Source: Deltaproteobacteria bacterium
GTDB taxonomy: Bacteria > Desulfobacterota > Desulfuromonadia > Geobacterales > DSM-12255
Assembly: GCA_021849045.1 (NCBI GenBank)
Contig: JAJZTK010000001.1
Coordinates: forward strand, 1-64,000
Direction: 5' to 3'
DNA length: 64,000 nt
Numbering within the stretch: position 1 is the stretch's first letter; each line of letters opens with the position of its first letter. Of this stretch, positions 40,916-57,371 are shown one piece after another. Below the pieces are notes generated by a model. It saw only the letters and a list, made by a program, of their open reading frames with translations, was not told where the DNA came from and did not search any database. Position numbers and translations under genes: made by a program.

Positions 40916-42004
40916 TCACCCCTGGTCAAATGTTGTTACGATCCGGTAGAGGGTCGTCCGTTGCGCGGCCCGGAAGCCGGCACCATGGATGAGGTTCACC
41001 ATCTCGTCTCCGCTCATCCGGAACCTGCAGCCGGCAGCTGCCACCACATTCTCTTCCAGCATGGTCCCCCCGAGGTCGTTGGCGCCGAAGAACAGCGCCA
41101 CCTGGGCCATTTTTGCCCCCTGGGTCACCCAGCTGGCCTGGATGTTGGGTACATTGTCCAGTACGATACGGGACAGGGCCAGCACCTTCAGATACTCCAC
41201 GCCGGTGGCGGTCTGCCCCCCCAGTTCCGTGTTGCCCGGCTGATAGGTCCAGGGGATGAAGGCGGTGAAGCTGCCGCCCTCCGCCTGGAGTTCCCGCACC
41301 CGGAAGATATGCTCCACGACCTCTCCAGGCGTCTCCGTGCTGCCGAACATCATGGTCGCCGTGGTGGGAAGTCCCTGGCGGGCCGCCTCCCGCATTACCG
41401 CGGCCCATCCTTCCCAGCCGATCTTCTTGGGGGAGATCTCAGCCCTTACCCGGTCCACCAGGATCTCTGCTCCGCCCCCCGGCACGGAATCCAGCCCGGC
41501 TGCCTTGAGGCGGCTCACGGTTTCCGGCAGGGAGAGCTTCGACACCCGGGCGATCTGGGTGATCTCGGCCGGCGACAGGGAATGGTTCTGCACGGCCGGA
41601 AAACGGGCCTTGATTTCCCGGAACAGCCGTTCGAACCAATCTATCCCCAGCCCGGGGTGGAGCCCCCCCTGCATCAGAAGCTGGGTCCCCCCCTGGTCCA
41701 CCAGTTCCCGGATCTTGGCGAAGATCTCTTCCTCGGCCAGCAGATAGGCGTCCGTGGCCCCTTCGTCCCGATAGAAGGCGCAGAATCGGCACTTGGATTC
41801 GCAGATGTTGGTGTAGTTGACGTTCCGGTCCTTCACAAAGGTGACCAGGTTGTCCGGGTGGAGTCTTTTTCTGATGCGGTCCGCGAGCTTCCCCACGACC
41901 AGCAGGTCGGCATCGGTCAGGAGCCGGAGGGCATCGGACCTGGTGATGGCAGCACCCTGTTCAACGTTGCGGATGATGGTTGCGACAGCACTCATGATCG
42001 TCAC
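40916..42004 (-). CDS. mqnC: Cyclic dehypoxanthinyl futalosine synthase (radical SAM)
   Basis: NVNYTNICESKCRFCAFYRDEGATDAY; paired with MqnE paralog. Confidence 0.88.
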   Translation of the reverse strand: MTIMSAVATIIRNVEQGAAITRSDALRLLTDADLLVVGKLADRIRKRLHPDNLVTFVKDRNVNYTNICESKCRFCAFYRDEGATDAYLLAEEEIFAKIRELVDQGGTQLLMQGGLHPGLGIDWFERLFREIKARFPAVQNHSLSPAEITQIARVSKLSLPETVSRLKAAGLDSVPGGGAEILVDRVRAEISPKKIGWEGWAAVMREAARQGLPTTATMMFGSTETPGEVVEHIFRVRELQAEGGSFTAFIPWTYQPGNTELGGQTATGVEYLKVLALSRIVLDNVPNIQASWVTQGAKMAQVALFFGANDLGGTMLEENVVAAAGCRFRMSGDEMVNLIHGAGFRAAQRTTLYRIVTTFDQG

Positions 42005-42630
42005 CGTTCCACCAGGGCCAGCCGGACGCCGAGCAGGGCAAAGATGCCGGCGGCGAGCCAGCCGAACTGCTGACCGGCCCGTGGCCGCTTTGAGATCCAG
42101 CCGCCGACACTGCCGGAGAAAAAGCCGATCAGGGAGAAGATGACCAGGGCCTGGGCCATGAAGAGGAGCCCGAGCAGCATCATCTGCAGCGGGATGCTGC
42201 CGGCGTCACGGTTCGCGAACTGGGGGAGAAAGGCAAGAAAGAAGAGCGCCACCTTGGGGTTAAGGACATTCATGACAAAGCCGCGCCGAAAGAGCGCCGC
42301 CCCCGAAGGCCCATCGACCGCACCGCTGGCCGGCAGTGCCAGCAGCCCCCCTTCGCGCACTGCCTGCCAGGCCAGATAGAGCAGGTAGGCCGCGCCCGCG
42401 TACTTCACGAGCTGAAAGGCGAGGGCCGAGGAATAGAAGAGCGCCGAGATCCCGGCCGCGGCGGCCAGGGTATGGACCGTGACGCCGCTGCACATCCCCC
42501 AGGCGGTGACGATGGCGGCCCGCCGGCCCCGGCTGAGTCCCTGGGTCACGACAAAGATGTTGTCCGGCCCCGGCGCCACGGTCAGGGCCATGGAGGCGCC
42601 GAGGAAGAGAAGGATAGTGGTTATGGTCAT
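42001..42630 (-). CDS. LysE/RhtB-family exporter
   Basis: GASMALTVAPGPDNIFVVTQGLSRGRRAAIVTAWGMCSGV, GFVMNVLNPKVALFFLAFLPQF. Confidence 0.88.
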   Translation of the reverse strand: MTITTILLFLGASMALTVAPGPDNIFVVTQGLSRGRRAAIVTAWGMCSGVTVHTLAAAAGISALFYSSALAFQLVKYAGAAYLLYLAWQAVREGGLLALPASGAVDGPSGAALFRRGFVMNVLNPKVALFFLAFLPQFANRDAGSIPLQMMLLGLLFMAQALVIFSLIGFFSGSVGGWISKRPRAGQQFGWLAAGIFALLGVRLALVER

Positions 42631-42648
42631 TACGAAATCCTTAACGCT

Positions 42649-42772
42649 CAGGTTGCTCAAAAATAGTCAGATCGTCGCATCCGCAGAAAGCTTCGAGGGA
42701 GGCGTAGCAGCGCTACGCCGCACTGAGGAGCTTGCGAGGACGGCGGCGAGATGGCTGTTTTTCAGCAACCTG
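42649..42772. repeat. 124-bp imperfect palindrome (MITE/REP-like)
   Basis: caggttgctcaaaaatag ... ctgtttttcagcaacctg ends with central ggcgtagcagcgctacgcc. Confidence 0.8.
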
Positions 42773-43852
42773 TTAGTACACCCGCAGTTCGTTGTAGAGC
42801 GTGTCCCGTTCTACCGGCACCCGCCCGGCTTTGCGGATCATGGCGATGATGCCGTCCCGGCTCATGGCCGTGGGAGAGTCTGCGCCGGCGTCGTGACCGA
42901 TCTTCTCCTCCACCACGGTGCCGTCCAGATCGTTGACCCCGAAGGCCAGTGACACCTGGGCGATCTTCTCCCCCAGCATCACCCAGTAGGCCTTGATGTT
43001 GGCGAAGTTGTCCAGGTAGAGCCGGGCCACGGCCAGGGTCTTCAGGTCGTCCACCCCGCCGCTGGCCGGGTTTTTCAGGTGCCCCAGCGGGTTGTTCTCG
43101 GACTGGAAGGCCAGCGGGATGAAAACCTGAAACCCGCCGGTCTCGTCCTGCAGCTCCCGCAGCCGACGCATGTGATCCACCCGGTCGGCATGGCTTTCCA
43201 CATGGCCGTAGAGCATGGTGGCGTTGGACTTCAGGCCGGCCCGGTGGGCCTCGGCCATGACCGCCAGCCATCGTTCGCCGCTGATCTTCTCGGGACAGAG
43301 CTGGTCCCGCACCTCCTTCGCCAGGATCTCAGCCCCGCCGCCGGTGAGCGAGCCGAGACCGGCCGATTTCAGCGTTGTCAGGGTATCCGGCACGGAGAGC
43401 CTGGCCAGACCAGCCAGGAAGTCGATCTCCACCGCCGTGAACGCCTTGATATGGAGGAGCGGCGAGACCTCACGCACCGTGCGGAGCATGTCGAGGTAAA
43501 AGTCGAACGGAAGGTCTGGATGCAGTCCGCCAACGATATGGATCTCGGTCGCCCCTTGGGCCAGCGCCTCTTCGGCCCGGCGCCGGATCTCGTCCAGGTC
43601 GTAGCAGTAGGCCCCCGGCTCGTCGGCGGTTTTTGAAAACGCGCAGAACTTGCAGCGGTTCACGCAGATGTTGGTGTGGTTGATGTGCCGGTTGACGTTG
43701 AAAAAGACCCGCCGACCGTTCTTCCGCTCGTTGACCAGGGCTGCCAGTTCTCCCACTGCCAGCAGGTCGGCGGAGTCGAACAGGAAGAGGGCCTCATCGT
43801 CGGTGAGACGGATGTTGTTATGTACTTTTTCTGTAATCTGTTCAATGGTCAT
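42773..43852 (-). CDS. mqnE: Aminofutalosine synthase (radical SAM)
   Basis: FNVNRHINHTNICVNRCKFCAFSKTADEPGAYCYDLDEI. Confidence 0.88.
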   Translation of the reverse strand: MTIEQITEKVHNNIRLTDDEALFLFDSADLLAVGELAALVNERKNGRRVFFNVNRHINHTNICVNRCKFCAFSKTADEPGAYCYDLDEIRRRAEEALAQGATEIHIVGGLHPDLPFDFYLDMLRTVREVSPLLHIKAFTAVEIDFLAGLARLSVPDTLTTLKSAGLGSLTGGGAEILAKEVRDQLCPEKISGERWLAVMAEAHRAGLKSNATMLYGHVESHADRVDHMRRLRELQDETGGFQVFIPLAFQSENNPLGHLKNPASGGVDDLKTLAVARLYLDNFANIKAYWVMLGEKIAQVSLAFGVNDLDGTVVEEKIGHDAGADSPTAMSRDGIIAMIRKAGRVPVERDTLYNELRVY

Positions 43853-44472
43853 AGACGATCTCTTGTCGCAATCTCTGTTGTTAACTTTTGTTCAAACCTG
43901 CAAAAGCTTGTCGACTTGCGCAGCTTCCGCAAATCCGTAGCGGATGACTTCATCACTTTAATCGCATGGGTTCGATCCTCATAACGCCATCCCCGCGCTG
44001 TCTTGAAGTGATTCATCATCACTGCCTTGGGATTTGGCTCGCGATCGGGCTTACTGGTACGCTTGACCGTGTATGGATGAGCAGCAGTGGAAAGGTACGC
44101 CGCGATCTTTGATTCGTCCGCCAGCAACCAGCTTTCCAGTTCCTGTTCGACACAAACCAGAAAGACCGATCTGTCTGCGACACCTGCTTTTGCTACAGCA
44201 TCCAAAAGGGCGAGGCGTTCGGCTCTGCGGCAAGGTTTGTGTTTCCTGTCGGGCCAGGCGGGGCGCAGATCCCAGACTATCAGCACCCGTTCGCAACCAT
44301 CAGCAAACAGCGCAGCCGCAACCCTCCCTGCATCACGCAGCAGGTTCTCCTTGTTGTCGAGGGTACGTGATACCGGCATAATATCTGCCCTGATCTGTGT
44401 AGCGAGATACTCGCAGACCAGCACGTCCGCCCCCTTCAAACCACATTCGAAGATAAAACCGACCTTGCTCAT
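43849..44472 (-). CDS. DUF4276-like (Toprim-like) protein
   Basis: GFIFECGLKGADVLV (Toprim-like Glu), VLIVWDLRPAWP, VEQELESWLLAD (DUF4276-like motif); ATGA overlaps with both neighbours. Confidence 0.65.
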   Translation of the reverse strand: MSKVGFIFECGLKGADVLVCEYLATQIRADIMPVSRTLDNKENLLRDAGRVAAALFADGCERVLIVWDLRPAWPDRKHKPCRRAERLALLDAVAKAGVADRSVFLVCVEQELESWLLADESKIAAYLSTAAHPYTVKRTSKPDREPNPKAVMMNHFKTARGWRYEDRTHAIKVMKSSATDLRKLRKSTSFCRFEQKLTTEIATRDRL

Positions 44473-45608
44473 GCGCCCCCCGCGGCAAGACTGCCCATGG
44501 TATAGAGCTTTCCGGGAGCGAAGTCGATAGCCCAGCGTTGCAGGTTTTCGTTGTCAGCAGGTCGCAGAAACAGAGGCTGTCCTTTGGCGTTGCGCTCCAC
44601 CAAAACCAGATGCTCAAGGGTGAGCAGATCAAGCAGGTAGGGAGAGTGGGTGGTCAAAATCACCTGTGTCGTGCCATCCAGCACGGCGTTGCGGATTTCC
44701 TCAACAAGCAGGTGGATGCTGCGTGGGTCCAGGCCGTTTTCAATTTCTTCCACCACAATCAGCGATGGCGGATTGGGGTGACGAAGCAATGCAAGCAGCG
44801 CCAGCATGCGTAGCGTCCCGGTGGAGAGCATCCACCCCGGCACCTTGAAATCAGCCTCTGCCAATTGCAGCCAGGCTTTACGCTCGATCTCGGATGAAGT
44901 CAGTGAGGGCTGAATATCTTTGGCGTACGGCAGCACATAACCCATTGTTTCCACAATACCGTCAAAGGCGTTTTGATCCTGGCGCCGCAGGTCGAGCAGA
45001 AAGTCGGCGATGTTTGAACCATCCCGGGCCAGTCGCACCCCGCCCCCGGTGCGCTGCTGCGGCACCGGCAGCCCCATCCGCTCAGGACTCAAGGTCAGAA
45101 ACTGCCAGTCGAGAACATGATGAGCCTCTTCCGCGAAGTCAGGCATTGGAGCCGAAAGGATCGAACGGCCTTGCCCATAAGTCTGCATAGCTCCTATCTT
45201 GTTGCGCTCCAGCCAGCTCCCGTCAGGATTGGAAATACGTTCCTGTGCAATAAACATGCGGTTGGCTGCCGGGTCGTTGTTCGCCTCAAGTTCGATACGA
45301 CGCACCTTTCGCGGACTCATACCGATAGCCAGTTCAAAGCTGATCGGATTTACCAACTCACCCCGACGCTCTTTGGCCTCCTGGCCTTTGTGACGCGCAT
45401 GCTCGATCCCCAGCCAGCGCTGCATGGCAATGTCAAGCCCGTCGTGGACGATACTCTGATAGGTTTCCAGTGCCTCGATCAGACTTGACTTGCCCGCGCC
45501 GTTGTTGCCGATAAAAGCGGTCAGAGACCCGAGCTTGACCACCTTGCTGTCGACAATGGCCTTGAAATTGCGGATGCGCACACTTTGCAGTCGTTTGGGC
45601 TGGCTCAT
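44469..45608 (-). CDS. AAA_21-family (OLD/RecF-like) ATPase
   Basis: FIGNNGAGKSSLIEAL Walker A; LIVVEEIENGLDPRSIHLLVEEI Walker B; QVILTTHSPYLLDLL. Confidence 0.88.
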   Translation of the reverse strand: MSQPKRLQSVRIRNFKAIVDSKVVKLGSLTAFIGNNGAGKSSLIEALETYQSIVHDGLDIAMQRWLGIEHARHKGQEAKERRGELVNPISFELAIGMSPRKVRRIELEANNDPAANRMFIAQERISNPDGSWLERNKIGAMQTYGQGRSILSAPMPDFAEEAHHVLDWQFLTLSPERMGLPVPQQRTGGGVRLARDGSNIADFLLDLRRQDQNAFDGIVETMGYVLPYAKDIQPSLTSSEIERKAWLQLAEADFKVPGWMLSTGTLRMLALLALLRHPNPPSLIVVEEIENGLDPRSIHLLVEEIRNAVLDGTTQVILTTHSPYLLDLLTLEHLVLVERNAKGQPLFLRPADNENLQRWAIDFAPGKLYTMGSLAAGGA

Positions 45609-46177
45609 TCAAACCCCTCCCCAACCCTCCCCTTGTCAAGGGAGGGAGTTTTTCGTTCCCCCCTGACAAGGGGGGCTAGGGGGGGTAGATTTTCAAGCCG
45701 ACGGCTCAAATCATCATACACTCCCTGGATATTCCGCAACACTTCGTCGTTAGTGTATCTGACCACAGTCAACCCTAATGCTTCGAGTACCTTTGTTCGT
45801 TCCGCATCGTATTCAATGGCTTCGGCGTGGCTGTCGCCATCAATCTCAATAACCAAATGGAGTTCAGAACAGTAGAAGTCTGCGATATAGTTGTCAATCG
45901 GCTTTTGACGCAGGAATTTGTAATCTGCGAACTGCCGCATGCGCAAGACTTCGTTCCAGATTTTGCTTTCAGCCTTGGTGGGATTCTTGCGGTTTTCGCG
46001 GGCGCGCTCAGTTAACTTTTTATTGTATGGGAGGAAAGCAGAATCAACGGCAAACCCCTCCCCCGCAGGTGCTAAAAGCAAACCCCTCCCCCGCCTCCCC
46101 TTGTCAGGGGAGGAGCTTTCAAGCCCCCCCCCTGATAAGGGGGGGCCAGGGGGGGGTAGGTTTTGCTTTTGACTCAC
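45605..46177 (-). CDS. DUF559 endonuclease-like protein (VSR fold)
   Basis: ENRKNPTKAESKIWNEVLRMRQFADYKFLRQKPIDNYIADFYCSELHLVIEIDGDSH; GTG start overlaps methylase stop. Confidence 0.85.
   Translation of the reverse strand: MSQKQNLPPPGPPLSGGGLESSSPDKGRRGRGLLLAPAGEGFAVDSAFLPYNKKLTERARENRKNPTKAESKIWNEVLRMRQFADYKFLRQKPIDNYIADFYCSELHLVIEIDGDSHAEAIEYDAERTKVLEALGLTVVRYTNDEVLRNIQGVYDDLSRRLENLPPLAPLVRGERKTPSLDKGRVGEGFE
45609..45695. repeat. G/C-rich double-palindrome element, copy 1 (encodes the DUF559 protein C-terminus)
   Basis: ccctccccttgtcaagggagggag and tcccccctgacaaggggggct; translated NLPPLAPLVRGERKTPSLDKGRVGEGFE*. Confidence 0.85.
46078..46165. repeat. G/C-rich double-palindrome element, copy 2 (encodes the DUF559 protein N-terminus)
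   Basis: cctccccttgtcaggggagg and cccccctgataagggggg; translated NLPPPGPPLSGGGLESSSPDKGRRGRG. Confidence 0.85.
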
Positions 46178-49100
46178 TTTATCAATCCTCTCTCCACATC
46201 GCGATAGGCATTCTGCGCGGCGATCTTCACCGGGTCGGCCACCAGGGGGAAGGTGGTCAGAATGTAGGCAAATTCTTCTTCCGTCAAGCCGTAAAGATGG
46301 GCGATGAGGCCATCCAATTCGGCCCGCAGGCGTCCGCGCTCGACCTCGTTGGTCACTCCCTGTTTATGGCTGCCGATGCCGGCCTCTTTGGCCAGGTCGT
46401 CAAATTCAGGCGTAGTGCAGATCAGCCGGGCGGCCCGCTCGACTATGGGGCGGAAGGCAGGGTCTTTTTCAGTGAGTCGCGGGACGGGGAGTTGGTAGAC
46501 ATAAAACATGTTGCAGTGCGCATTGACTTTTTGGCGAAGCATGAAATCACAAGGAAAGCTGTTCAGCAAGGCAGTTACAGCGATTAATTCCTTACGTGGC
46601 AATGAGTGTGACAGATACAGAGTATTTCCTGCGAACACGTTCTTTGGCAGAACAGCGGCTATCATGGTCCTTTCATCAGTATTTCGAGCAATGTCTCGGA
46701 ACGCAAGACGATAGGTTTGATAGTCAAGTTCCTGGCCCGAATCTTCGGTACGCTTTAATATCGCCTTTCTGCCGTCATTTTCATCTATCCAATAACGCGG
46801 CTCAGCAAAAACATGGGCAAACTGGTGGATCATCTTCCCTTCATAAAGCATCAGCCTGCCGGGTTTTAATTCGGTTTTAAATACCTTGCTGTCGTTCGTC
46901 ATATGGAACTCATTGCACAGAACAAGATTCCAGGAATTAGGGACATTTTCACCCAATAATGGAAACCTGAGGAATTTCTCCGCGATATGAGCATCAGTGC
47001 CCGTTTTGAATTCCATAAGCGACAAAGAGTCCGGTGAAAGTTTTCGTATTAACTCAACAGTTAGCTGTAACGCCCCTTCTTTCGGAAACCTGTCCAGCTC
47101 CGCCACATCATGCCTCATAAACGCTGTCGGGAAGGTTTCAGTTCTGCCACCTTTCACAAATGTCAGCACCACGAACTTGAAGCTGCGATGCACCCCCTCA
47201 AAAATCTCTTTGTTGTTTTCAAAGCAGAACAGCCCGGTTAATTCCGTTTCGGTGAACAACATTTCCCGCAACTGTTTGGTTCCCAAGTCGCTGTAGATGC
47301 CGCCGGGGATAACGATGCCGCATTCCCCGCCACTTCGCAGCAGGTTGAAACACTGCTCGGTGAAGAGTTTGTAAAGGTTGATATCGGAACCAGCTTTCTT
47401 GCCATTTACCACCGAAATCTGGTTCTTGTACTGGCTGGAACCCCGGAAATACTGGCTGACATATGGAAAACTATTCTGGTATTCAATCCAGGCAGCGCGG
47501 ATGTCGGCATCCTTCATCAACTTGGATTGTTCTTTCTCGAATTCCTTGATGGTCATCTTGTTCTTGGTGACCAGATCGGAATGATCTAGGAAAAACTCTT
47601 TGGCATTGGGCTTGAAAATCTCCCATGGCGGGTTGGTGATGATGGCGTCAAAACCGCCGCGCTTGTTGAGAATCTCGTCAAATTCGTAGCCCCAGTGAAA
47701 CGGATGCAGCGCCTCTAGGTCTTTCAAGGTCAGGGGACGCTTCTTCGGCTTTCCTTCCTTGTTTTTCGCGGTATCCCAGGTAGCCTCTTCGAATTTTATC
47801 CCCAGACGACTGAACTCTTCCAACAGGATTTTGTTAAGAGTGCCGACTGCTTCCTTCTTCTTCTGCTCGATGGTGTCCCGCATGGAACGAAGGTCTTCAG
47901 CGTATCCGGCGGTGTGACGGAACGTGTCGATCAGGCGGTTCTTCTCGGCCAATATCTCCCGATAACTCTTGCGGAACAGGTCGCCCTGGGCGTCGCGCTC
48001 ATAGTCGGCATCCGCCACGTGCAACAGGCCGATCAACGAGTTGCCTGCCAGGATGTTGAAGTCGATATTCGGCAGCGGCTCCAATTCATCGACATGTTGT
48101 GCCGCCGCTACCAGCGCCAGGAAGAGCCGCAGCTTGGCGATCTCCGTGGCCTCTTCCATGATGTCCACGCCGAACAGGTTGTCGGTGATGATCCGTTTCT
48201 TGATGAAGTAGCCGATGGATTTGTGCTCTGCCTTCTCCTTGCGTAACCAGTCGGTTAGGTTTCGGTCAGCCAGAAAATCAATCTTGCCGATGATGGCCGA
48301 GTAGATGTTGATGAGGGTCTTCATGGCCGCAACCAGAAACGCACCCGAGCCGCAGGCCGGATCGAGCAGGCTTAAGGCAGGCAGGACTTCGTGCAACAGA
48401 AAACGACAGAGCGGAGCATCGAGATTGAGCAGCAGCTCGGCAATCGAATCAAACCGGCGGGCCGCCAGCACGCCGGGGATGCCTGGAGTGTTGACCTTAT
48501 CGAGGATCAGCTTGTAGATGGTCTGTTCGCAGAGGTACTCGGTAATCTCCGGCCGCGTGTAATACGCGCCGAACGCCTTCTGGTTGATGTATTTCTCAAA
48601 GATGTAACCCAGCACATCGGGGTTGATCTCGTCGTCCTTGCCGGCCGGGGTGTCGTTCAGGTTCCAGGAATAGCGCTGGAACAGATCGAAGAGGTTTTCA
48701 AAGGCGATGTCCGGTATGCGGATGTCGGGATTTGTGTGTTCAATGGCATGGGGCAGGAAAAGCCCGCCGTTCAGGTATTTGATGGCGCCGAGAAGTTTCT
48801 TTGCCTCTGGGCTGCGCTCCTGTTCCGGCTTGGCAAATCCTTCAAAGAAGAGGGCTTTCAGAAAGACGGAAAAGAAAACCCCTCCCGGCCTCCCCTTGTC
48901 AGGGGAGGAGCTGTCTATAGTCCCCCCCTGACAAGGGGGGCTAGGGGGGGTGTTTTTGCAAAACTCCAGTTTCTCATGCAGGTAGTTCTGGTTACCGCCA
49001 TCCAGAAAGCCCTTTTTCTGGAGGAAGTAGATGAACATCAGCCGGTTGAGAAGGACTGAAGCGTACCAACGGCGCATGCGATCATCTTCAATGCCTTCGA

Positions 49101-49656
49101 TCAGATTGAGGAAATCAAGCCGTTGCCGGTCAAATTCACCAAAGAATTTCTTGGTGACCCGTTCAATGTCCAGAGCCTTCTTCAGGCGGGTTGCAACCTC
49201 GGTTACCGGCAGGCTGCCTGTTTCATCCAGTTCCGAGATGTCCACCACCATGGCGCCCAGCTTGCTGAGAAACAGGTCGCCCGGCTGCCCCTGCACATAA
49301 AGGTGCTCGCGGGGAAAGGTCTTGGTCCCCTCGCGTTTTACCCAGTACCAGAGGCTTTGGGTGCGCTCTTTGTCGAGAAAGATGAGCAGGTTTTCGTGAT
49401 GGTGGCGGGATATTTCCTTGTGCATGGCGGCACGGGCCTTGGCGTCGGGCATTCGGCCGTAATGGGATGAAATTTCCAGGACAACCACTCCTGAAAGCTG
49501 GGCAATCTGTTGCCGCCCGTAGCTGACCCCCTCGTGCGAAAAGGTAGCAGTTTGTCTGCTGGTCGGCTGGGACCAGCCCAGTTCTTCGATGAAGAGCGAC
49601 TGAAAATCGAATTGCTGCAACAGGTCGCGGGTTCTTTCGATGTTGAGAACTGCCAC
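46174..49656 (-). CDS. Eco57I/PglX-like N6-adenine DNA methyltransferase (possible RM fusion)
   Basis: LLDPACGSGAFLVAAMKTL, FDAIITNPPWEIFKPN; about 1160 aa with an additional N-terminal domain. Confidence 0.9.
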   Translation of the reverse strand: MAVLNIERTRDLLQQFDFQSLFIEELGWSQPTSRQTATFSHEGVSYGRQQIAQLSGVVVLEISSHYGRMPDAKARAAMHKEISRHHHENLLIFLDKERTQSLWYWVKREGTKTFPREHLYVQGQPGDLFLSKLGAMVVDISELDETGSLPVTEVATRLKKALDIERVTKKFFGEFDRQRLDFLNLIEGIEDDRMRRWYASVLLNRLMFIYFLQKKGFLDGGNQNYLHEKLEFCKNTPPSPPCQGGTIDSSSPDKGRPGGVFFSVFLKALFFEGFAKPEQERSPEAKKLLGAIKYLNGGLFLPHAIEHTNPDIRIPDIAFENLFDLFQRYSWNLNDTPAGKDDEINPDVLGYIFEKYINQKAFGAYYTRPEITEYLCEQTIYKLILDKVNTPGIPGVLAARRFDSIAELLLNLDAPLCRFLLHEVLPALSLLDPACGSGAFLVAAMKTLINIYSAIIGKIDFLADRNLTDWLRKEKAEHKSIGYFIKKRIITDNLFGVDIMEEATEIAKLRLFLALVAAAQHVDELEPLPNIDFNILAGNSLIGLLHVADADYERDAQGDLFRKSYREILAEKNRLIDTFRHTAGYAEDLRSMRDTIEQKKKEAVGTLNKILLEEFSRLGIKFEEATWDTAKNKEGKPKKRPLTLKDLEALHPFHWGYEFDEILNKRGGFDAIITNPPWEIFKPNAKEFFLDHSDLVTKNKMTIKEFEKEQSKLMKDADIRAAWIEYQNSFPYVSQYFRGSSQYKNQISVVNGKKAGSDINLYKLFTEQCFNLLRSGGECGIVIPGGIYSDLGTKQLREMLFTETELTGLFCFENNKEIFEGVHRSFKFVVLTFVKGGRTETFPTAFMRHDVAELDRFPKEGALQLTVELIRKLSPDSLSLMEFKTGTDAHIAEKFLRFPLLGENVPNSWNLVLCNEFHMTNDSKVFKTELKPGRLMLYEGKMIHQFAHVFAEPRYWIDENDGRKAILKRTEDSGQELDYQTYRLAFRDIARNTDERTMIAAVLPKNVFAGNTLYLSHSLPRKELIAVTALLNSFPCDFMLRQKVNAHCNMFYVYQLPVPRLTEKDPAFRPIVERAARLICTTPEFDDLAKEAGIGSHKQGVTNEVERGRLRAELDGLIAHLYGLTEEEFAYILTTFPLVADPVKIAAQNAYRDVERGLIK
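48873..48958. repeat. G/C-rich double-palindrome element, copy 3 (in frame inside the methylase gene)
   Basis: cctccccttgtcaggggagg and cccccctgacaagggggg; translated KNTPPSPPCQGGTIDSSSPDKGRPGGVFF. Confidence 0.88.
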
Positions 49657-52600
49657 CTAGTTCCCCTCCCTTTGGACAAGCCCCATCGAACAGATAATGC
49701 GCGGTTCGAAGCTTTGCTCTTCTTCGTGGACGAGACAAAGCCGGTCTTCTTCCCTCAATGCCATAACAAGCTCGGCTAGTGACTGATCGGAAATGCCGCT
49801 GCGTAACTGCCGGTTCAGCGTGTCGGTCGATGTTTGACGAAGCGGATAACGGTAGATTTCGTCAATCGATTTGTAAAGAGCCGGGGAGTCGAATAGCGTC
49901 CCCTTGACCTCTGCGGCATACCGTTTCAAGCGCTCGTAGGTCCGAAAACGGGCTCCGGATGGTCGGCCGAGTTGTCCACCGACCGTTTTCTCTTCAGCAA
50001 CAATCTGCTCGACACCTTTGTGGACCAGCTCGTGATGCTTTTCCTGGCGCGGCAGCGCCGGTGTGTCGGGTGAGCATTCCGCTGCCCTTAAGATAGCATA
50101 CTGTGATTCGGTGACGCTGTTGCCCTGTGTATCTATCCATGCCAGTGAATCGTTACCTTCGGCGGTACGGAGGTAGACAAGGACACCGGAATCGCTCCCC
50201 CCTTGATAAAGGGGGGCTGGTGGGGATTTGGTTGTAGAGGCAAATCCCCCTAAGTCCCCCTTTATCAAGGGGGACTTCAATTCTTTGGTCGAATACACTA
50301 CCGCCGGCAACTCCGGCACTACCTTCTGCAAGCCGGGATCAACCTTGATGGCATTCTTCCAGATCTGCCATGCATACGAAGCCAGATCGACTTCAGTATC
50401 GGCATCGCCATCGAGTATGCCGGATTTCTCATGGTAGAGATCGATAACAGCCTGACCTTCGCCATCTCCCTCGAAAAAGGCTTCATCGGTCCCGACCACT
50501 TCGGCGTTTTCCTGAAGCCGTTGACGCACCCGCGCCCGCAATCTGATGATGCGCTCAACCCCTTCAGCAGGGAGGAAGGAATAGCAGAGGATCTTTTCCG
50601 CTTGCTGGCCTATACGATCCACACGACCGGCACGCTGGATGAGTCGAATTATCGCCCAAGGGAGATCATAGTTGACGATGACGGAACAATCCTGCAGGTT
50701 CTGACCTTCGCTGAGGACATCCGTAGCAATCAGGACTCGTAATTCTTCGCTACGTGCTATTTTGTCGCGCTTGTTATTGCTCACCGGGCTGAAACGCCAG
50801 GAAAGAGCAGTAGGATCGGCTGAGGCCCCTGTTGCGCCTGCCTGCTGAGTTATCCCTTGAGCTTTCAGCTGCGCCTCAAGATACCGGACTGTGTCGGCAA
50901 ACTGGGTAAAGATAAGGACCTTTTCAGATGGATGTCTTTGTGTGAGGAGCTCCAGCAGCGCATTCAGCTTGGCATCTCTGGCTGCATCCCAATTGCCGCA
51001 TTTTTGCAGGGCCTGTAACAATGCCTTCGCATCGTTAGCCAAGTCTTTGCCCAAAGTTTTTACAAACAATGAAGGGCGAAGCCATTTGAACCGTTTTTTG
51101 TAGTGAACAGTATACTCGGCATAAATCTCTGCTGCGCGTTGGCGGAATTCTTCCTCGGAACGTGGTCCGGAAGGCGTCTCGATAGTGCATTGCTCACCGG
51201 TTTCTTCTTCAAAAAGATCGGCTGTCACACATGCATCATCGGCATCCTCATCGTATGTAGCACTGTCCAGAGAACCGGCATCGAGGGTGCCGACGGGAAT
51301 TGGTTGCCCCTGTTCGATGGCATGAAGGAAGACATAATTCCTTAATATATGCCGCTCCAGCGACAGAATGAATGCCTGGCCACTACTTTCAAGCCGTTTG
51401 AAGAGGTTGGTGCGACAGAATCCCATCAGCCGTTTACCCGCAAGGGACAGGTCGTGCAACAGTTTCGCCTCATGGGGGGTGGGTGCCTCATGGGGCGTTG
51501 CGGCAACATAGTTACCCAGGCCGTAACGCGGAAGAGTGAGCACGTTGATTGTATCCACAACATCCGATGCATAGAGCTGTGCATACTGGTCTGAGGCATC
51601 TTTGTCGTTGATTGCAAAAGCAACGGTACAGGGCTTTCGCGATGGGAAGTAGGAGCGGCTGCCATCCTCAAACGTAAGAAACCTGCGCCCGGTATCCGGG
51701 TCAGTATCGGAATAGTTGTCCTGAATGAAGCTCCGCGTCCGGCGCACCATGTAAAGGCGCATCAACTCACGCCAGTCGTCGGTGAACTCGCTTTTTTCAA
51801 AAGCCGCCAGTGACCGGACTGGGCACTGATGCCGCCGGACGAATTCATCCTGTCCCAACTCACGGATCAGCCGCTCCGGGCGGATACCAAGATCCTTGTC
51901 TTCAGGCACGAAGAGACGGAGTTGATTGGAGAGATCAAGATACGTCTTGTTGTAGGGAGTTGCGGAGAGCAGGATGCATTTGCTCTCGTTTTCCTGGATG
52001 TATTCCTGAATTGCCCGATAGCGCTTCCCTTCACGGTTGCGCAGGTTGTGGCTTTCATCAATCAGAACCAGCCGGTAACGGCGCAACTCCGGGAGATCCC
52101 TGGTTGCCTGACTGATGGAGAGGATTTTGGCCCGCAGGCGATACTGGTCGCGATAGTCCTCCCACATCGGCACAAGGTTCTTGGGACAGATGATCAGTGT
52201 TTCAAGCCCGTGATCGTCCTCAAAAATGCGTACCAGCGCCGTCGCCATGAGGGTCTTGCCCAGGCCGACGACATCACCGATCAGGACACCACCACGTTTA
52301 TTTAGATGGTGAGCTGCAATCTTAACCGCTGCTGCCTGGAACTCGAAGAGCCTCTTACCGAAATCACGGGGGATACGGAACTGAAGCAGACCTTCACGTG
52401 CTTCATGGGCCAGGTGATAGGCCATCTTCAAATAGATATGGTAGGGCGGGATGACCTCTTCTCTGGCCCAGCTATCCTCGATAATCTGGACCAGTTCATC
52501 CGAAATATCCAGACACCAGCGATCTTTCCAGCGATCTTCAAACCACTTTGCCAACTTCAGCGTAGCGTCGTGATCGAGGACATCGATGTTCAATTCTCCC

Positions 52601-53112
52601 TGCCCTGAAAGACCGGGAAAAGTAAGGTTGCTGCTGCCGAGATAGCCGATGATCGGGTTTATGGGATCGGGACGGAACAACAGGTAGAGCTTTGCATGCA
52701 GAGAGTGGCGCAAGAATAATTTGACGACCACCTTACCGGCTTTTATCTGCGATGCCAGACGGCGCAGACCGGCCTCATCCTCGTTTGTCGGCACGCCTTT
52801 GGTCAACTGGTCCCGAAAATCTTCAGCCAGCTTTTTTTTGAGACGGAGAGCAGTTTGATTGTCGATTCCCGTGTCCTGCTTCACCAGGGCAAAGAGGTCA
52901 CGCAGTTCATCCTGAGGCGGGCGCTGCATGCCGACGAGCAGGCGACAACAGTTACCCGCGCCGCCGCCCCACTTTTCAATATAGGAATCGAGTTGCTTCC
53001 AACCTCTCAGATTGAAATAACCGACACAAAAATCTGCATGATCAGAGACATTTAGTGTCTCCTGCAATGTCGGAAGAAGCCTGTTTTCTATATTGTCGAA
53101 TATGCGCGGCAC
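49657..53112 (-). CDS. PLD-domain + SNF2-family helicase
   Basis: HSLHAKLYLLF...GYLGSSNLTFPG (HKD-like); GGVLIGDVVGLGKTLMATAL, VLIDESHNLRN, LLSATPYNKT, QRAGRVDRIGQ; GTG start at 53112 with GGGGAG upstream preferred over 53166. Confidence 0.88.
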   Translation of the reverse strand: MPRIFDNIENRLLPTLQETLNVSDHADFCVGYFNLRGWKQLDSYIEKWGGGAGNCCRLLVGMQRPPQDELRDLFALVKQDTGIDNQTALRLKKKLAEDFRDQLTKGVPTNEDEAGLRRLASQIKAGKVVVKLFLRHSLHAKLYLLFRPDPINPIIGYLGSSNLTFPGLSGQGELNIDVLDHDATLKLAKWFEDRWKDRWCLDISDELVQIIEDSWAREEVIPPYHIYLKMAYHLAHEAREGLLQFRIPRDFGKRLFEFQAAAVKIAAHHLNKRGGVLIGDVVGLGKTLMATALVRIFEDDHGLETLIICPKNLVPMWEDYRDQYRLRAKILSISQATRDLPELRRYRLVLIDESHNLRNREGKRYRAIQEYIQENESKCILLSATPYNKTYLDLSNQLRLFVPEDKDLGIRPERLIRELGQDEFVRRHQCPVRSLAAFEKSEFTDDWRELMRLYMVRRTRSFIQDNYSDTDPDTGRRFLTFEDGSRSYFPSRKPCTVAFAINDKDASDQYAQLYASDVVDTINVLTLPRYGLGNYVAATPHEAPTPHEAKLLHDLSLAGKRLMGFCRTNLFKRLESSGQAFILSLERHILRNYVFLHAIEQGQPIPVGTLDAGSLDSATYDEDADDACVTADLFEEETGEQCTIETPSGPRSEEEFRQRAAEIYAEYTVHYKKRFKWLRPSLFVKTLGKDLANDAKALLQALQKCGNWDAARDAKLNALLELLTQRHPSEKVLIFTQFADTVRYLEAQLKAQGITQQAGATGASADPTALSWRFSPVSNNKRDKIARSEELRVLIATDVLSEGQNLQDCSVIVNYDLPWAIIRLIQRAGRVDRIGQQAEKILCYSFLPAEGVERIIRLRARVRQRLQENAEVVGTDEAFFEGDGEGQAVIDLYHEKSGILDGDADTEVDLASYAWQIWKNAIKVDPGLQKVVPELPAVVYSTKELKSPLIKGDLGGFASTTKSPPAPLYQGGSDSGVLVYLRTAEGNDSLAWIDTQGNSVTESQYAILRAAECSPDTPALPRQEKHHELVHKGVEQIVAEEKTVGGQLGRPSGARFRTYERLKRYAAEVKGTLFDSPALYKSIDEIYRYPLRQTSTDTLNRQLRSGISDQSLAELVMALREEDRLCLVHEEEQSFEPRIICSMGLVQREGN
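50195..50278. repeat. G/C-rich double-palindrome element, variant family, copy 4 (in frame inside the helicase gene)
   Basis: ccccccttgataaagggggg and gtccccctttatcaagggggac; translated ELKSPLIKGDLGGFASTTKSPPAPLYQGGS. Confidence 0.85.
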
Positions 53113-53116
53113 TTGC

Positions 53117-53752
53117 TTAGGCTCCCCACCTATTGAACAGCCGGTGCTCCACTCCGAGCGCGTCAAGCACCTTTCCGACCATGAAATCGGCCAGATCGTC
53201 CAGGGTCTCCGGCTGGCCGTAGAAGCCGGGCATGGCCGGCACGATCCTGACCCCGAGGCGGGCGAGCTTCAGCATGTTTTCCAGATGGATGGCGGACAGG
53301 GGGGTCTCCCGCGGGACCAGCACCAACGGGCGTCCCTCCTTGAGCATGCAGTCGGCAGTCCGCTCCAGGAGGGTTCCGGAGAGGCCGGCAGCTATCCGGG
53401 CCAGGCTCCCCATGGAGCAAGGGGCAACGACCATGGCATCGGCGGCGCTGGAACCGCTGGCGACCGGGGCAAAGAAGTTGTCCTCGGCATAGTAAGAGAT
53501 GACGGGCTCGAAGTCGGTTTCATCCCTGCCCACTGAGATCGCAGCGGCAAAATGATCCCATGCCTTCTCCGTCACCTCTTCCGGCGTACCTTCCCAGTCG
53601 AGACCGCACTCCTCCCGCAGCACCGTGAAGCCGCAGCGGCTGATCAATAGAGTTACCCGGATGCCGGAGCGAAGCAGTTCATCGGTGAGCCTGAGGCCGT
53701 AGACCGCACCGGAGGCGCCGGTGATGGCGAGGACGATGTGCCGTGCCGTCAT
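53117..53752 (-). CDS. ubiX: UbiX/MqnM-like flavin prenyltransferase
   Basis: VLAITGASGAVYGLRLTDELL, VVAPCSMGSLARIAAGLSGTLLERTADCMLKEGRPLVLVPRETPLS. Confidence 0.93.
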   Translation of the reverse strand: MTARHIVLAITGASGAVYGLRLTDELLRSGIRVTLLISRCGFTVLREECGLDWEGTPEEVTEKAWDHFAAAISVGRDETDFEPVISYYAEDNFFAPVASGSSAADAMVVAPCSMGSLARIAAGLSGTLLERTADCMLKEGRPLVLVPRETPLSAIHLENMLKLARLGVRIVPAMPGFYGQPETLDDLADFMVGKVLDALGVEHRLFNRWGA

Positions 53753-54621
53753 GCTACCCCCTTCCCGGTCAGAACATCAAGCAGCGTGGCAACGAAGATG
53801 ATGATGCTGATGTAGCCGTTCGTGGTGAAGAACGCCATATCCAGCCTTGCCAGGTCACCGCTCCGGAGCAGCCAGTGCTCGTAGCAGAGCAGCAGCGTGG
53901 CTGCCACGATCCCGGCCAGGAAGAAGCCCCCCACCGGCAGCAGACTGCAGAGTGTTGCCAGCAGCGCCACCATGACCAGCGAAAAGAGGCGGGCCGTCCA
54001 GAGGGAACCGTTCACCCCGAGCCGCACCGGGATCGAGTGCAGCCCCCGTGCCCGGTCAAACTCCAGATCCTGCAGGGCGTAGAGGATGTCGAACCCTGCC
54101 ACCCAGAAGAGCACCGCCAGCCCGAGCAGGACGGCCGGGAGATCGACAGTCCCGCGGATGGCGATCCAGGCGCCGACCGGCGCCGCGCCCAGACAGAGCC
54201 CCAGCACCACGTGGGCAAGGGCGGTGAACCGCTTGCAGTAGGAGTAGAGGACCAGAAAGAAGAGCGCAACCGGTGCGAGCTTGAGGCAGAGCGGATTCAG
54301 ACGGGAAGCGGCGTACAGCATGAGTAGGATTGCGAGGACGATGAACAGTATGACCGTCCCTTTGCCCAGGAGCCCCGCCGGAATGGCCCGGCCCTTAGTG
54401 CGCGGATTCTCGCCGTCGATCTCCGCGTCGATCACCCGGTTGAGCCCCATGGCCGCGGTGCGCGCCCCTACCATGGCCATGACGATCCAGAATATCTGCT
54501 GCCACGTCGGGAGTCCCTGCGCTGCTAAGAGCGCACCGGTCAAGGCAAAGGGGAGTGCGAAGATGGTGTGGGAGAACTTGATCATCTCCAGGAAGACCGC
54601 AATGCGGGATACTATGGTCAT
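53749..54621 (-). CDS. UbiA/MqnP-like polyprenyltransferase
   Basis: MGLNRVIDAEIDGENPRTKGRAIPAG, FDILYALQDLEFDRARGLHSIP Asp-rich motifs. Confidence 0.9.
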   Translation of the reverse strand: MTIVSRIAVFLEMIKFSHTIFALPFALTGALLAAQGLPTWQQIFWIVMAMVGARTAAMGLNRVIDAEIDGENPRTKGRAIPAGLLGKGTVILFIVLAILLMLYAASRLNPLCLKLAPVALFFLVLYSYCKRFTALAHVVLGLCLGAAPVGAWIAIRGTVDLPAVLLGLAVLFWVAGFDILYALQDLEFDRARGLHSIPVRLGVNGSLWTARLFSLVMVALLATLCSLLPVGGFFLAGIVAATLLLCYEHWLLRSGDLARLDMAFFTTNGYISIIIFVATLLDVLTGKGVA

Positions 54622-54932
54622 AGCTGTACCTTCGTGACAGTTCATCGGCGCTTCTTCTGGGAAATCGTTATTTTTAACATTTCAAGGCCATGGCAGCAAT
54701 CCTTTTCCGCCCGGACAACACGGTCGGGTGGCACGCAAGCGCCTGTTCCTCGTAGGAGGAGTGGAGCTTGACCACACATCTGCTGGTAGCGGTGCATACC
54801 CTACCCTATTTCCGCCGCTTTTCGCAACCCTTGCGGGCAGTTCAAAGCGTTTATTGTGCTTGAATTCATGGGGCAATCTGCCATAATAAACCGCTTTGCC
54901 ACAGAACCCCAGCAGCAGGAGCACCAGACACC

Positions 54933-57371
54933 ATGCCGGTTTATCAAGGACAGCACCCCCAACAGCCGCACAACCGCCGACAGCCGCGGAGCGGCTTTCG
55001 CACCATCACCATCCTCGTCATTGTCGCCATCCTCATCGCCCTGATGGCCGGCTTCGGCTATACGGCCTACATCTTCGCCACCCTCCCGAAAGTCGACCGG
55101 TTGGCCGACTACCGCCCGCCCATCGTTTCCCAGGTCTTCGGTGACGACGGCAGCCTGGTGGGCGAGTTCTACCTTGAGCGACGCAAGGTGGTGGAGGTGG
55201 ACAAGATTCCCCGCCGCCTGATCCAGGCCTTTGTCTCCGCCGAGGATGCCAACTTTTACAAGCACAGTGGGATCGACTACCTGGGAATTGCTCGGGCAGC
55301 GTTCAAAAACGTCATCTCCCTCCGCAAGAAGGAGGGAGCCTCCACCATCACCCAGCAGGTGGCCAAGTCCATGCTCCTGACGCCGGAGAAGAAGTTCTCC
55401 CGCAAGATCAAGGAAGCGATCCTCGCCACCCGGATGGAGAAGAAGCTTTCCAAGGACGAAATCCTCTACATCTACCTGAACCAGATCTACCTGGGAGGCG
55501 GGGCCTACGGCGTTCAGCTGGCTGCGGAAACCTATTTCGGCAAGAACGTAGAGCAGTTGACCCTGGCCGAGATGGCCATGCTGGCAGGCCTGCCCAAGGC
55601 GCCCAACAGTTACTCCCCCATTAAACACATGGACCGGGCCAAAGAGCGGCAGGCCTATGTTCTGGAGCGGATGGTGAAGGAAGGGTACATCACCCAGGCC
55701 GAGGCAGACTATGCCAAAAACAGTCCCATCGTGATCCAGTCGATGAAGAAGGTGAACAACGACCAGTCCGCCTACTTCCTGGAGCAGATCAGGATCCAAC
55801 TGGTGGAGCATTATGGTGAGGAACGGCTTTACAAGGACGGCCTGCGTATCTACACCACCATGAACGCCGAGATGCAGAAGGGAGCCTACGACGCGGTGGT
55901 GAACGGCCTCAAGGCCCTGGACAAGCGCCAGGGGTTCCGCGGCCCGCTCCGCTACCTGAACGAAGGTGAGGTGGAACCGTTCTGCAGGAAGGTCGAGGAC
56001 GGCATAGACACCGTTGCCCTGAAGCAGGGGGTCATCTTTCAGGGGGTAGTTACAGCGGTTAATCCGGCAAACGGGGACGTGACCGTCCGCGTCGGTGACC
56101 GGATCGGCTCGCTCACCCGCAGGCAGATGGCCTGGGCCGGAAAGGTTGAACTTATCGGCACCTACGGCAAGCCGGACGGTAAAGGGAAGGCGCTGCCGCT
56201 GGGGAGCGTCATCAACGTGTCGGTGGTTACGTCGGACGTCAACAAGACCGGCGCCCTCTTCGCCCTGGATCAGGAACCAGAGGCCCAGGCGGCTCTGGTG
56301 GCCATCGATCCCCGCACCGGCGGGGTCAGGGCGCTGGTCGGCGGGTACGACTTCAAAAAGAGTCAGTTCAACCGGGCCGTTCAGGCCCGCCGCAACCCCG
56401 GCTCCGCCTTCAAGCCGATCATCTACGGGGCAGCCCTGGAAAAAGGGATGACCGCTGCCGCCATCATCGACGATGCCCCGGTGGAGTACGAAAGCGGTAG
56501 GGAGAAGGCCTGGAAGCCCAAGAATTACGACAATATCTACCGCGGCAGCGTCACCATGCGGGAGGCGTTGACCAACTCCATCAACGTGGTGAGCGTCAAG
56601 ATCCTGGAACAGATCGGGGTAGCATCGGCCATAGAGTTTGCCAAGAAGCTGGGGATCACCTCCCCCCTGGAAGCCAACCTGACCCTGGCGCTCGGCTCCT
56701 CCAGCCTCACCCCCCTGGAACTGACCAACGCCTATGCCGTCTATGCCTCGGGCGGCTATCGCCTCACCCCGTACTTCGTCACCAAGGTGACCGACCGGGA
56801 CGGGAGAGTGCTTGAGGAGATCCCCACCCCGGCAATCCCTGTCTTCACCCAGCCCAGCTCGGCCATGGGGGAGGAAGGGCCGGTCACCCTGAACCAGCCG
56901 AGCCAGCCGGCACCCGTTGCCTCCCCCCTCGCGCCGGTGCCGGCCACGTCGCCGGAGGTGGCCTATATCATGACCAATCTGATGGAAAGCGTCGTCACCA
57001 GCGGTACGGGTCAGCGCGCCCGGGCACTGGGACGGCCGGTAGCCGGCAAGACCGGCACCACCAACGACATGAAGGATGCCTGGTTCGTCGGGTACATTCC
57101 CCAGTTGGTGGCCGGCGTCTGGGTCGGCTACGACCAGGAACGGTCACTGGGCGCCAGCGGCTCAGGCGGCCATGCTGCCGCCCCTATCTGGACAGAGTTC
57201 ATGCAGCGGGCCGTGGCCGGACTCCCCCTCATGGACTTTCCCCCTCCTCGGAACATCACCTTAGCCAGGATTAATCCTCGTACAGGCAAGCTGACTCGGG
57301 AAGGAAGCGAGGGGAGCGTCATGGAATGCTTTGTATCGGGGACTGAGCCGACGTCATATGACGGAGAGTAG
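54933..57371 (+). CDS. Penicillin-binding protein 1A (transglycosylase/transpeptidase)
   Basis: [78 protein letters not shown]. Confidence 0.93.

Follow-up and report, generated by a model that had tools for sequence, protein, structure and literature searches.

Within the window, a stretch of 64,000 nucleotides, five minus-strand genes with defence-type domains stand inside a menaquinone operon, which raises the question whether they make up one new defence system or several modules sharing one place. The earlier note had taken them for a putative defence cassette, possibly composed of one module based on methylation and another of the ATPase/Toprim-like kind, and comparison of the relatives' loci supported that description. 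The cassette is a real composite of predicted defence genes and probably not one new system. The genes and repeats concerned are given below in the direction of transcription.

53749..54645, minus strand: MqnP/UbiA-type prenyltransferase, operon gene
53117..53752, minus strand: ubiX-type flavin prenyltransferase, bordering the slot upstream (TIGR00421, 209 bits)
49657..53112, minus strand: PLD (HKD/BfiI-like) nuclease joined in one protein with an SNF2-type translocase, first core gene, called the helicase here (Pfam, relatives)
50191..50280, no strand: solo repeat, in frame inside the helicase gene
46174..49656, minus strand: Eco57I/type IIG-like N6-adenine methylase with DPACGSGAF and NPPW (Pfam, PADLOC, comparison with G075)
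48865..48960, no strand: solo repeat, in frame inside the methylase gene
46046..46170, no strand: C/G-rich hairpin repeat on the 5' side of DUF559, beginning at the methylase stop codon
45605..46177, minus strand: DUF559 (VSR-fold) nuclease ORF between the methylase and ATPase genes (Pfam, repeats)
45606..45693, no strand: C/G-rich hairpin repeat on the 3' side of DUF559, ending at the ATPase start codon
44469..45608, minus strand: OLD/PtuA-like ABC ATPase (AAA_21, HEC-01A-like) (Pfam, PADLOC, structure match)
43849..44472, minus strand: DUF4276 protein (HEC-01B-like), the ATPase's cognate partner (Pfam, PADLOC)
42773..43852, minus strand: mqnE aminofutalosine synthase, bordering the slot downstream (TIGR03700, 556 bits)
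42001..42660, minus strand: LysE-type transporter within the operon (labelled by sequence inspection)
40916..42004, minus strand: mqnC, operon gene (TIGR03699, 505 bits)

The four junctions at which the five genes overlap or abut (49657/49656, 46174/46177, 45605/45608 and 44469/44472) were exactly as first described. The motifs of the five proteins were intact, and a Pfam scan confirmed their domain labels, with PLDc_2, SNF2-rel_dom and Helicase_C in the helicase, Eco57I (82 bits) and MmeI_Mtase in the methylase, DUF559 (118 bits) in the nuclease ORF, AAA_21 (99 bits) in the ATPase and DUF4276 (34 bits against a cut-off of 30.2) in the last gene. The first ORF spans 49657-53166, and its homologues, with the pattern [M/V]P-[RT]-I-[FY]-D-N-I, place the helicase start at a GTG at 53112. 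The overlaps are real, but a coherent five-gene unit is not supported, as DUF559 is bracketed by repeats and missing from every homologous locus.

The operon around the cassette is of the futalosine type, with MqnP/UbiA and UbiX upstream and MqnE and MqnC downstream. Four nucleotides separate the stop of ubiX (53117-53119) from the helicase GTG, and at the other edge the stop codon of DUF4276 shares bases with the mqnE start ATG (43849/43852), so both edges of the cassette are coupled to the operon. A search of 52900-55000 for minus-strand promoter- or terminator-like sequences gave no match. Since all its genes run in the operon's direction and translation is coupled at either end, read-through from the menaquinone operon probably drives expression of the cassette. 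The interval 43849-53752, earlier proposed for cloning, takes in ubiX, a housekeeping gene.

Among the 13 genomes of families f1 and f2 with visible upstream sequence, seven had the ubiX|mqnE slot occupied (in G007 and G013 the contig stops short of ubiX). It holds the studied cassette in G000, HEC-01 in G001, HsdR with SIR2_2 in G013, BrnT/BrnA with a SIR2-like fragment in G007 and non-defence genes in G003 and G012. The slot of G011 carries a Schlafen/AlbA_2 gene amid remnants of the studied cassette, namely helicase residues 13-47, methylase residues 1068-1160 (95%) and DUF4276 residues 156-207 (87%). It is empty in G002, G004, G006, G009, G016 and G019. In family f3, ubiX was adjacent in 39 of 40 loci and none had an insert; the occupancy of f1/f2 versus f3 differed with a Fisher p of about 1e-5, a value that ignores relatedness. 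At least four unrelated defence contents have turned over at this slot among related genomes, and stacking defence modules in a co-directional, coupled slot would let them be expressed without bringing along their own promoter or integrase. Two smaller features were seen at these loci. In G001, an HsdR-like gene start of 22 residues, 64% identical to the intact HsdR of G013, lies upstream of mqnE (L120:4739-4804); in G011 (L019, a MAG), mqnE has an in-frame TGA beside the cassette remnants, due to decay or to an assembly error.

A second defence slot within a metabolic operon, as judged from its gene content, is argG|argH of the arginine operon. There G075 (L018) holds the cassette in its four-gene form, without DUF559, and G091 (L327) a C5-methylase/HATPase/Z1/DUF4420/AIPR/Vsr cluster, and G052 (L331) has an empty 18-bp gap. 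In G491 (L324), NERD and DUF559 genes lie just upstream of argH, with argG outside the visible sequence.

Which genes belong together was judged from their relatives. A search with a four-sequence helicase alignment found helicase relatives on at least 539 genome contigs (GTDB) from many phyla, and the best 80 of these were 64-82% identical over nearly the full length. The gene directly 3' of the helicase was the methylase in nearly all loci with enough sequence. Going by this neighbourhood, the PLD-SNF2 helicase and the Eco57I-type methylase are a widespread two-gene core. In the helicase, with four relatives compared, H139, K141, N162, E173, the Walker A motif GDVVGLGKT and DESH were invariant, and the SNF2 motifs are intact. 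The order and, roughly, the spacing of H139/K141/N162/E173 fit the H-K-N-E site of BfiI-type PLD nucleases.

The methylase has motifs I and IV and scored 391 bits with PADLOC REase_MTase_IIG (PDLC03628), and in these respects resembles type IIG/Eco57I-type restriction-modification methylases. It differs from them in having a separate PLD-SNF2 partner and an N-terminal domain with no solved relative: a PDB profile search was empty and Foldseek gave no match below E 0.001. On these two results this domain was rejected as an active nuclease; the predicted domain has no evident D-ExK motif. The methylase relatives fall into two classes with a common N-terminal half, one of full-length relatives and one with an unrelated C-terminal half. 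Because the C-terminal half is 86-87% identical to that of G075 but the N-terminal half only 55% (window 46174-49656 against L018:7827-11420), the comparison suggests that the methylase is a mosaic whose putative recognition half has been exchanged. Methylases of the full-length type are rare, with 3 of 395 phylum genomes, the window's genome included, matching the C-terminal half at 1e-60.

Class-B helicase-methylase loci often continue with a DprA/PsyrA-like gene, a possible third component of these loci. This gene, of about 205-225 aa, recurs after class-B pairs in L026, L031-L035, L049, L052, L069, L078, L090, L096 and others. Separately, two Viridilinea genomes (L061, L060) carry an MNT/HEPN-like pair and another methylase-like fragment after a class-A helicase-methylase pair.

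The ATPase, with intact motifs (Walker A GNNGAGKSS, VVEEIENGLDP and TTHSP), matched PADLOC HEC-01A with 160 bits over residues 2-374 of 379; its closest solved structures are 6p74 and PtuA 9kjx, making it OLD/PtuA-like. The adjacent DUF4276 protein matched several HEC-01B models (best 33 bits, E 1.5e-8). An exact match to a catalogued system, which the earlier note had considered for the whole set, was obtained for this pair alone, as PADLOC HEC-01A/B. The pair differs from PADLOC HEC-01 in being embedded behind a helicase-methylase pair and in its low HEC-01B scores (at most 33 bits); HEC-01 itself was not found in the literature searched. As regards the Toprim/DUF4276-like signatures, DUF4276 was above the Pfam cut-off, while a Toprim fold is weakly supported. 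The predicted model was of low confidence (pLDDT 68.5), and the top hit over nearly its whole length, to the OLD C-terminal (Toprim) region of 6nk8, was not significant (E 0.039, TM 0.41), so the protein was not accepted as a proven Toprim. An OLD/PtuA-like ABC ATPase beside a putative Toprim-like partner recalls PARIS, Gabija and retron-PtuA, although the partner here is DUF4276 and not DUF4435 or a fused Toprim.

The ATPase and DUF4276 genes directly follow the methylase in G075, L024, L030 and L048, with -3 nt overlaps or short gaps. At the same position L038 has AAA_21 with a HEC-02B protein (199 bits), and L036, which has the other methylase class, a distant AAA protein with a 221-aa protein of no assigned family. 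Most other helicase-methylase loci have neither gene, and G001, of the same genus, has the HEC-01 pair without helicase or methylase (HEC-01A, 333 bits). In PMC12839542, OLD-ABC modules figure as auxiliary layers that accompany BREX and related systems. We read AAA_21 with DUF4276 as a HEC-01-like add-on that, by analogy, may have been recruited as a guard or backup effector. Its presence co-varies mainly with one methylase class, and for this reason it could be functionally integrated and not independent.

At the methylase|ATPase junction, G075, L024 and L048 have a plain ATGA overlap where the window has a repeat-DUF559-repeat unit, and since DUF559 is absent from all homologous loci of the cassette relatives, it was rejected as a native fifth gene. 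All four C/G-rich hairpin repeats sit in coding sequence and fold as single-strand DNA with z = -3.7 to -6.8. Two of them bracket the DUF559 domain, which lies at 45695-46018, and the DUF559 ORF runs through them at both ends. Inspection of the 3'-side repeat on the minus strand, CCCTCCCTTGACAAGGGGAGGGTTGGGGAGGGG, against TMECO, CCCTCTCCCTTGAGGGAGAGGGTTAGGGTGAGGGT, revealed a pyrimidine arm, a complementary purine arm and a mirror purine strand; on this layout it is an intrastrand-triplex (TM) type repeat by prediction. The copy in the helicase gene fits the triplex layout less well. The two sides of the unit carry TGAGTCA and TGAGCCA, identical at 6 of 7 positions, a match too short to be relied on as a clean target-site duplication. 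The bracketing repeats and the empty site in relatives are features of a REPtron-like mobile element, and DUF559 is probably a separate, mobile nuclease gene. As it occurs in one copy in this genome, there was no recent burst here. Its nuclease domain is intact, and it could act in defence.

The cassette was compared with named systems as well. The absence of drmA/drmB and of the BREX genes pglZ/brxC was confirmed by Pfam and PADLOC scans. BREX was rejected on the missing pglZ and brxC and on PglX models of at most 45 bits (cut-offs 400-900), and MADS on scores of 37 for MAD2 (cut-off 720), 115 for MAD3 (420) and 18 for MAD4 (160). The DISARM likeness seen earlier in the PLD/SNF2/methylase parts did not hold, as the helicase scored 136 bits with NCBIfam DrmD against a cut-off of 610 and no dedicated drmA/drmB protein is present, the helicase being just a weak DrmA match (53 bits). 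The suggested Hma likeness of helicase, methylase and ATPase fell as well. HmaC is a DUF499 ATPase (PMC12839542) and HmaB is described as an m5C methylase (PMC8565338), whereas the ATPase here is OLD/PtuA-like AAA_21 and none of the five proteins has DUF499. A type-2 BREX-related system was rejected, as DUF3780 is not among the five proteins. The DUF499-centred type-2 BREX-related systems (Hma-like, PMC12839542) share with the cassette an HKD plus Swi2/Snf2 helicase with an N6-methylase, and auxiliary OLD-ABC/nuclease effectors within the same loci; the cassette differs in having neither the DUF499 ATPase nor DUF3780.

Taken together, it is probable that three independently acquired layers share one slot of a housekeeping operon. 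Layer 1 would be an ATP-dependent, restriction-modification-like pair. The methylase would mark its own adenine-containing site through motifs I/IV and the C-terminal recognition half, and the PLD-SNF2 protein would translocate on unmodified DNA and cut, probably as a dimer, with its BfiI-like H-K-N-E PLD site, an activity suggested by a family-wide conserved sequence. Layer 2, the OLD/PtuA-like ATPase with its DUF4276 partner, might be a guard or backup effector, set off either by infection or when layer 1 is inhibited, on the model of PARIS-type OLD/Toprim pairs, which have been proposed to back up BREX. Layer 3 would be the DUF559 nuclease and the hairpin repeats around it, inserted between the first two layers in REPtron-like fashion and probably outside the defence mechanism. 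Specialist attention is best spent on the slot within the operon and on the DUF559-repeat unit.

A single integrated four- or five-gene system, with the OLD-like ATPase, DUF4276 and possibly DUF559 as obligate parts of a restriction complex, would agree with the overlap of all ORFs and with the ATPase and DUF4276 following in 5 of 8 loci that have a full-length-type methylase and enough downstream sequence. We consider it unlikely, given the many helicase-methylase loci that do without the pair, the HEC-02-type pair in its place in L038, the stand-alone HEC-01 of G001 and the restriction of DUF559 to this locus among relatives. Far less probable is a degenerate Hma or type-2 BREX-related system, left with its HKD-SNF2 helicase and N6-methylase after loss of DUF499 and DUF3780. 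The helicase architecture and the N6-methylase do match type-2 components (PMC12839542), but DUF499 and DUF3780 are both lacking from the cassette, and the helicase, for all its PLDc_2 and SNF2 domains, scored 73 bits with HmaA as compared to 159 with PADLOC C3a139 (HKD+Snf2). Moreover, helicase and methylase stand as a conserved pair in dozens of genomes, so the pair is not a one-off decay. The layered arrangement is the reading we prefer.

The repeats around DUF559 were then sought in other genomes. With matching repeats of at least 40 bits within 400 bp on each side counted as bracketing (mostly within tens of bp), the figure for the top DUF559 genes in the order was 25 bracketed out of 27 that could be tested, as compared to 1 of 240 random control positions. 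Phylum-wide the count was 16 of 30, against none of 28 dprA genes and none of 120 random windows; the DUF559 loci sampled were the top-scoring ones. In G019, DUF559 is flanked on each side by a 24-mer (C73:56437, 56924) that turns up on its own at four further places. Genomes with DUF559 had a median of 10 palindromes versus 2 in those without it (p 5e-6, phylogeny partly controlled), and the higher count also holds within f1, f3 and f4 separately. In their layout of a hairpin plus a mirror strand, the linked repeats agree with the triplex motifs of PMC4666352, a 2015 survey which reports no mobility genes near TMECO-type intrastrand-triplex repeats. Our literature search found no paper linking DUF559 to repeats.

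We tentatively propose, as a possibility somewhat short of even, that short stand-alone DUF559 (VSR-fold) nucleases mobilise C-rich intrastrand-triplex repeats (TMECO/boxC type), the bracketed units moving REPtron-like and scattering solo repeats. As in REP/RAYT REPtrons (TnpA-REP), a small DNA-acting enzyme is bracketed by palindromes that are also found solo, but the enzyme is a VSR-fold DUF559 nuclease and not a Y1 HUH transposase, and the repeats are of the triplex type (TMECO family, PMC4666352) and not REPs. The link may instead be passive, with both gathering in recombinogenic variable regions and DUF559 neither moving nor using the repeats. TM repeats do go with genetic variation in E. 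coli (PMC4666352), about half of the phylum-wide DUF559 genes have no strong flanking repeat pair, and at DUF559 in G491 the repeats are one-sided. We regard such a passive link as doubtful, though a serious contender, since two-sided bracketing far exceeds that of random positions and dprA genes, the G019 24-mer also stands solo and DUF559 carriers are richer in repeats. These repeats occur across bacteria and their spread has had no explanation; the bracketed DUF559 gene points to a candidate enzyme for it.

In E. coli K-12, the DUF559 gene ycjD ends 168 bp from an exact TMECO-type copy, for which the chance is about 0.4% on a rough estimate (23 copies in 4.64 Mb). The loci for these observations, the DUF559 genes of the phylum bracketed by C-rich triplex-type repeats and ycjD beside its TMECO copy, are L224-L253, L254-L283 and L314:1718-2261.
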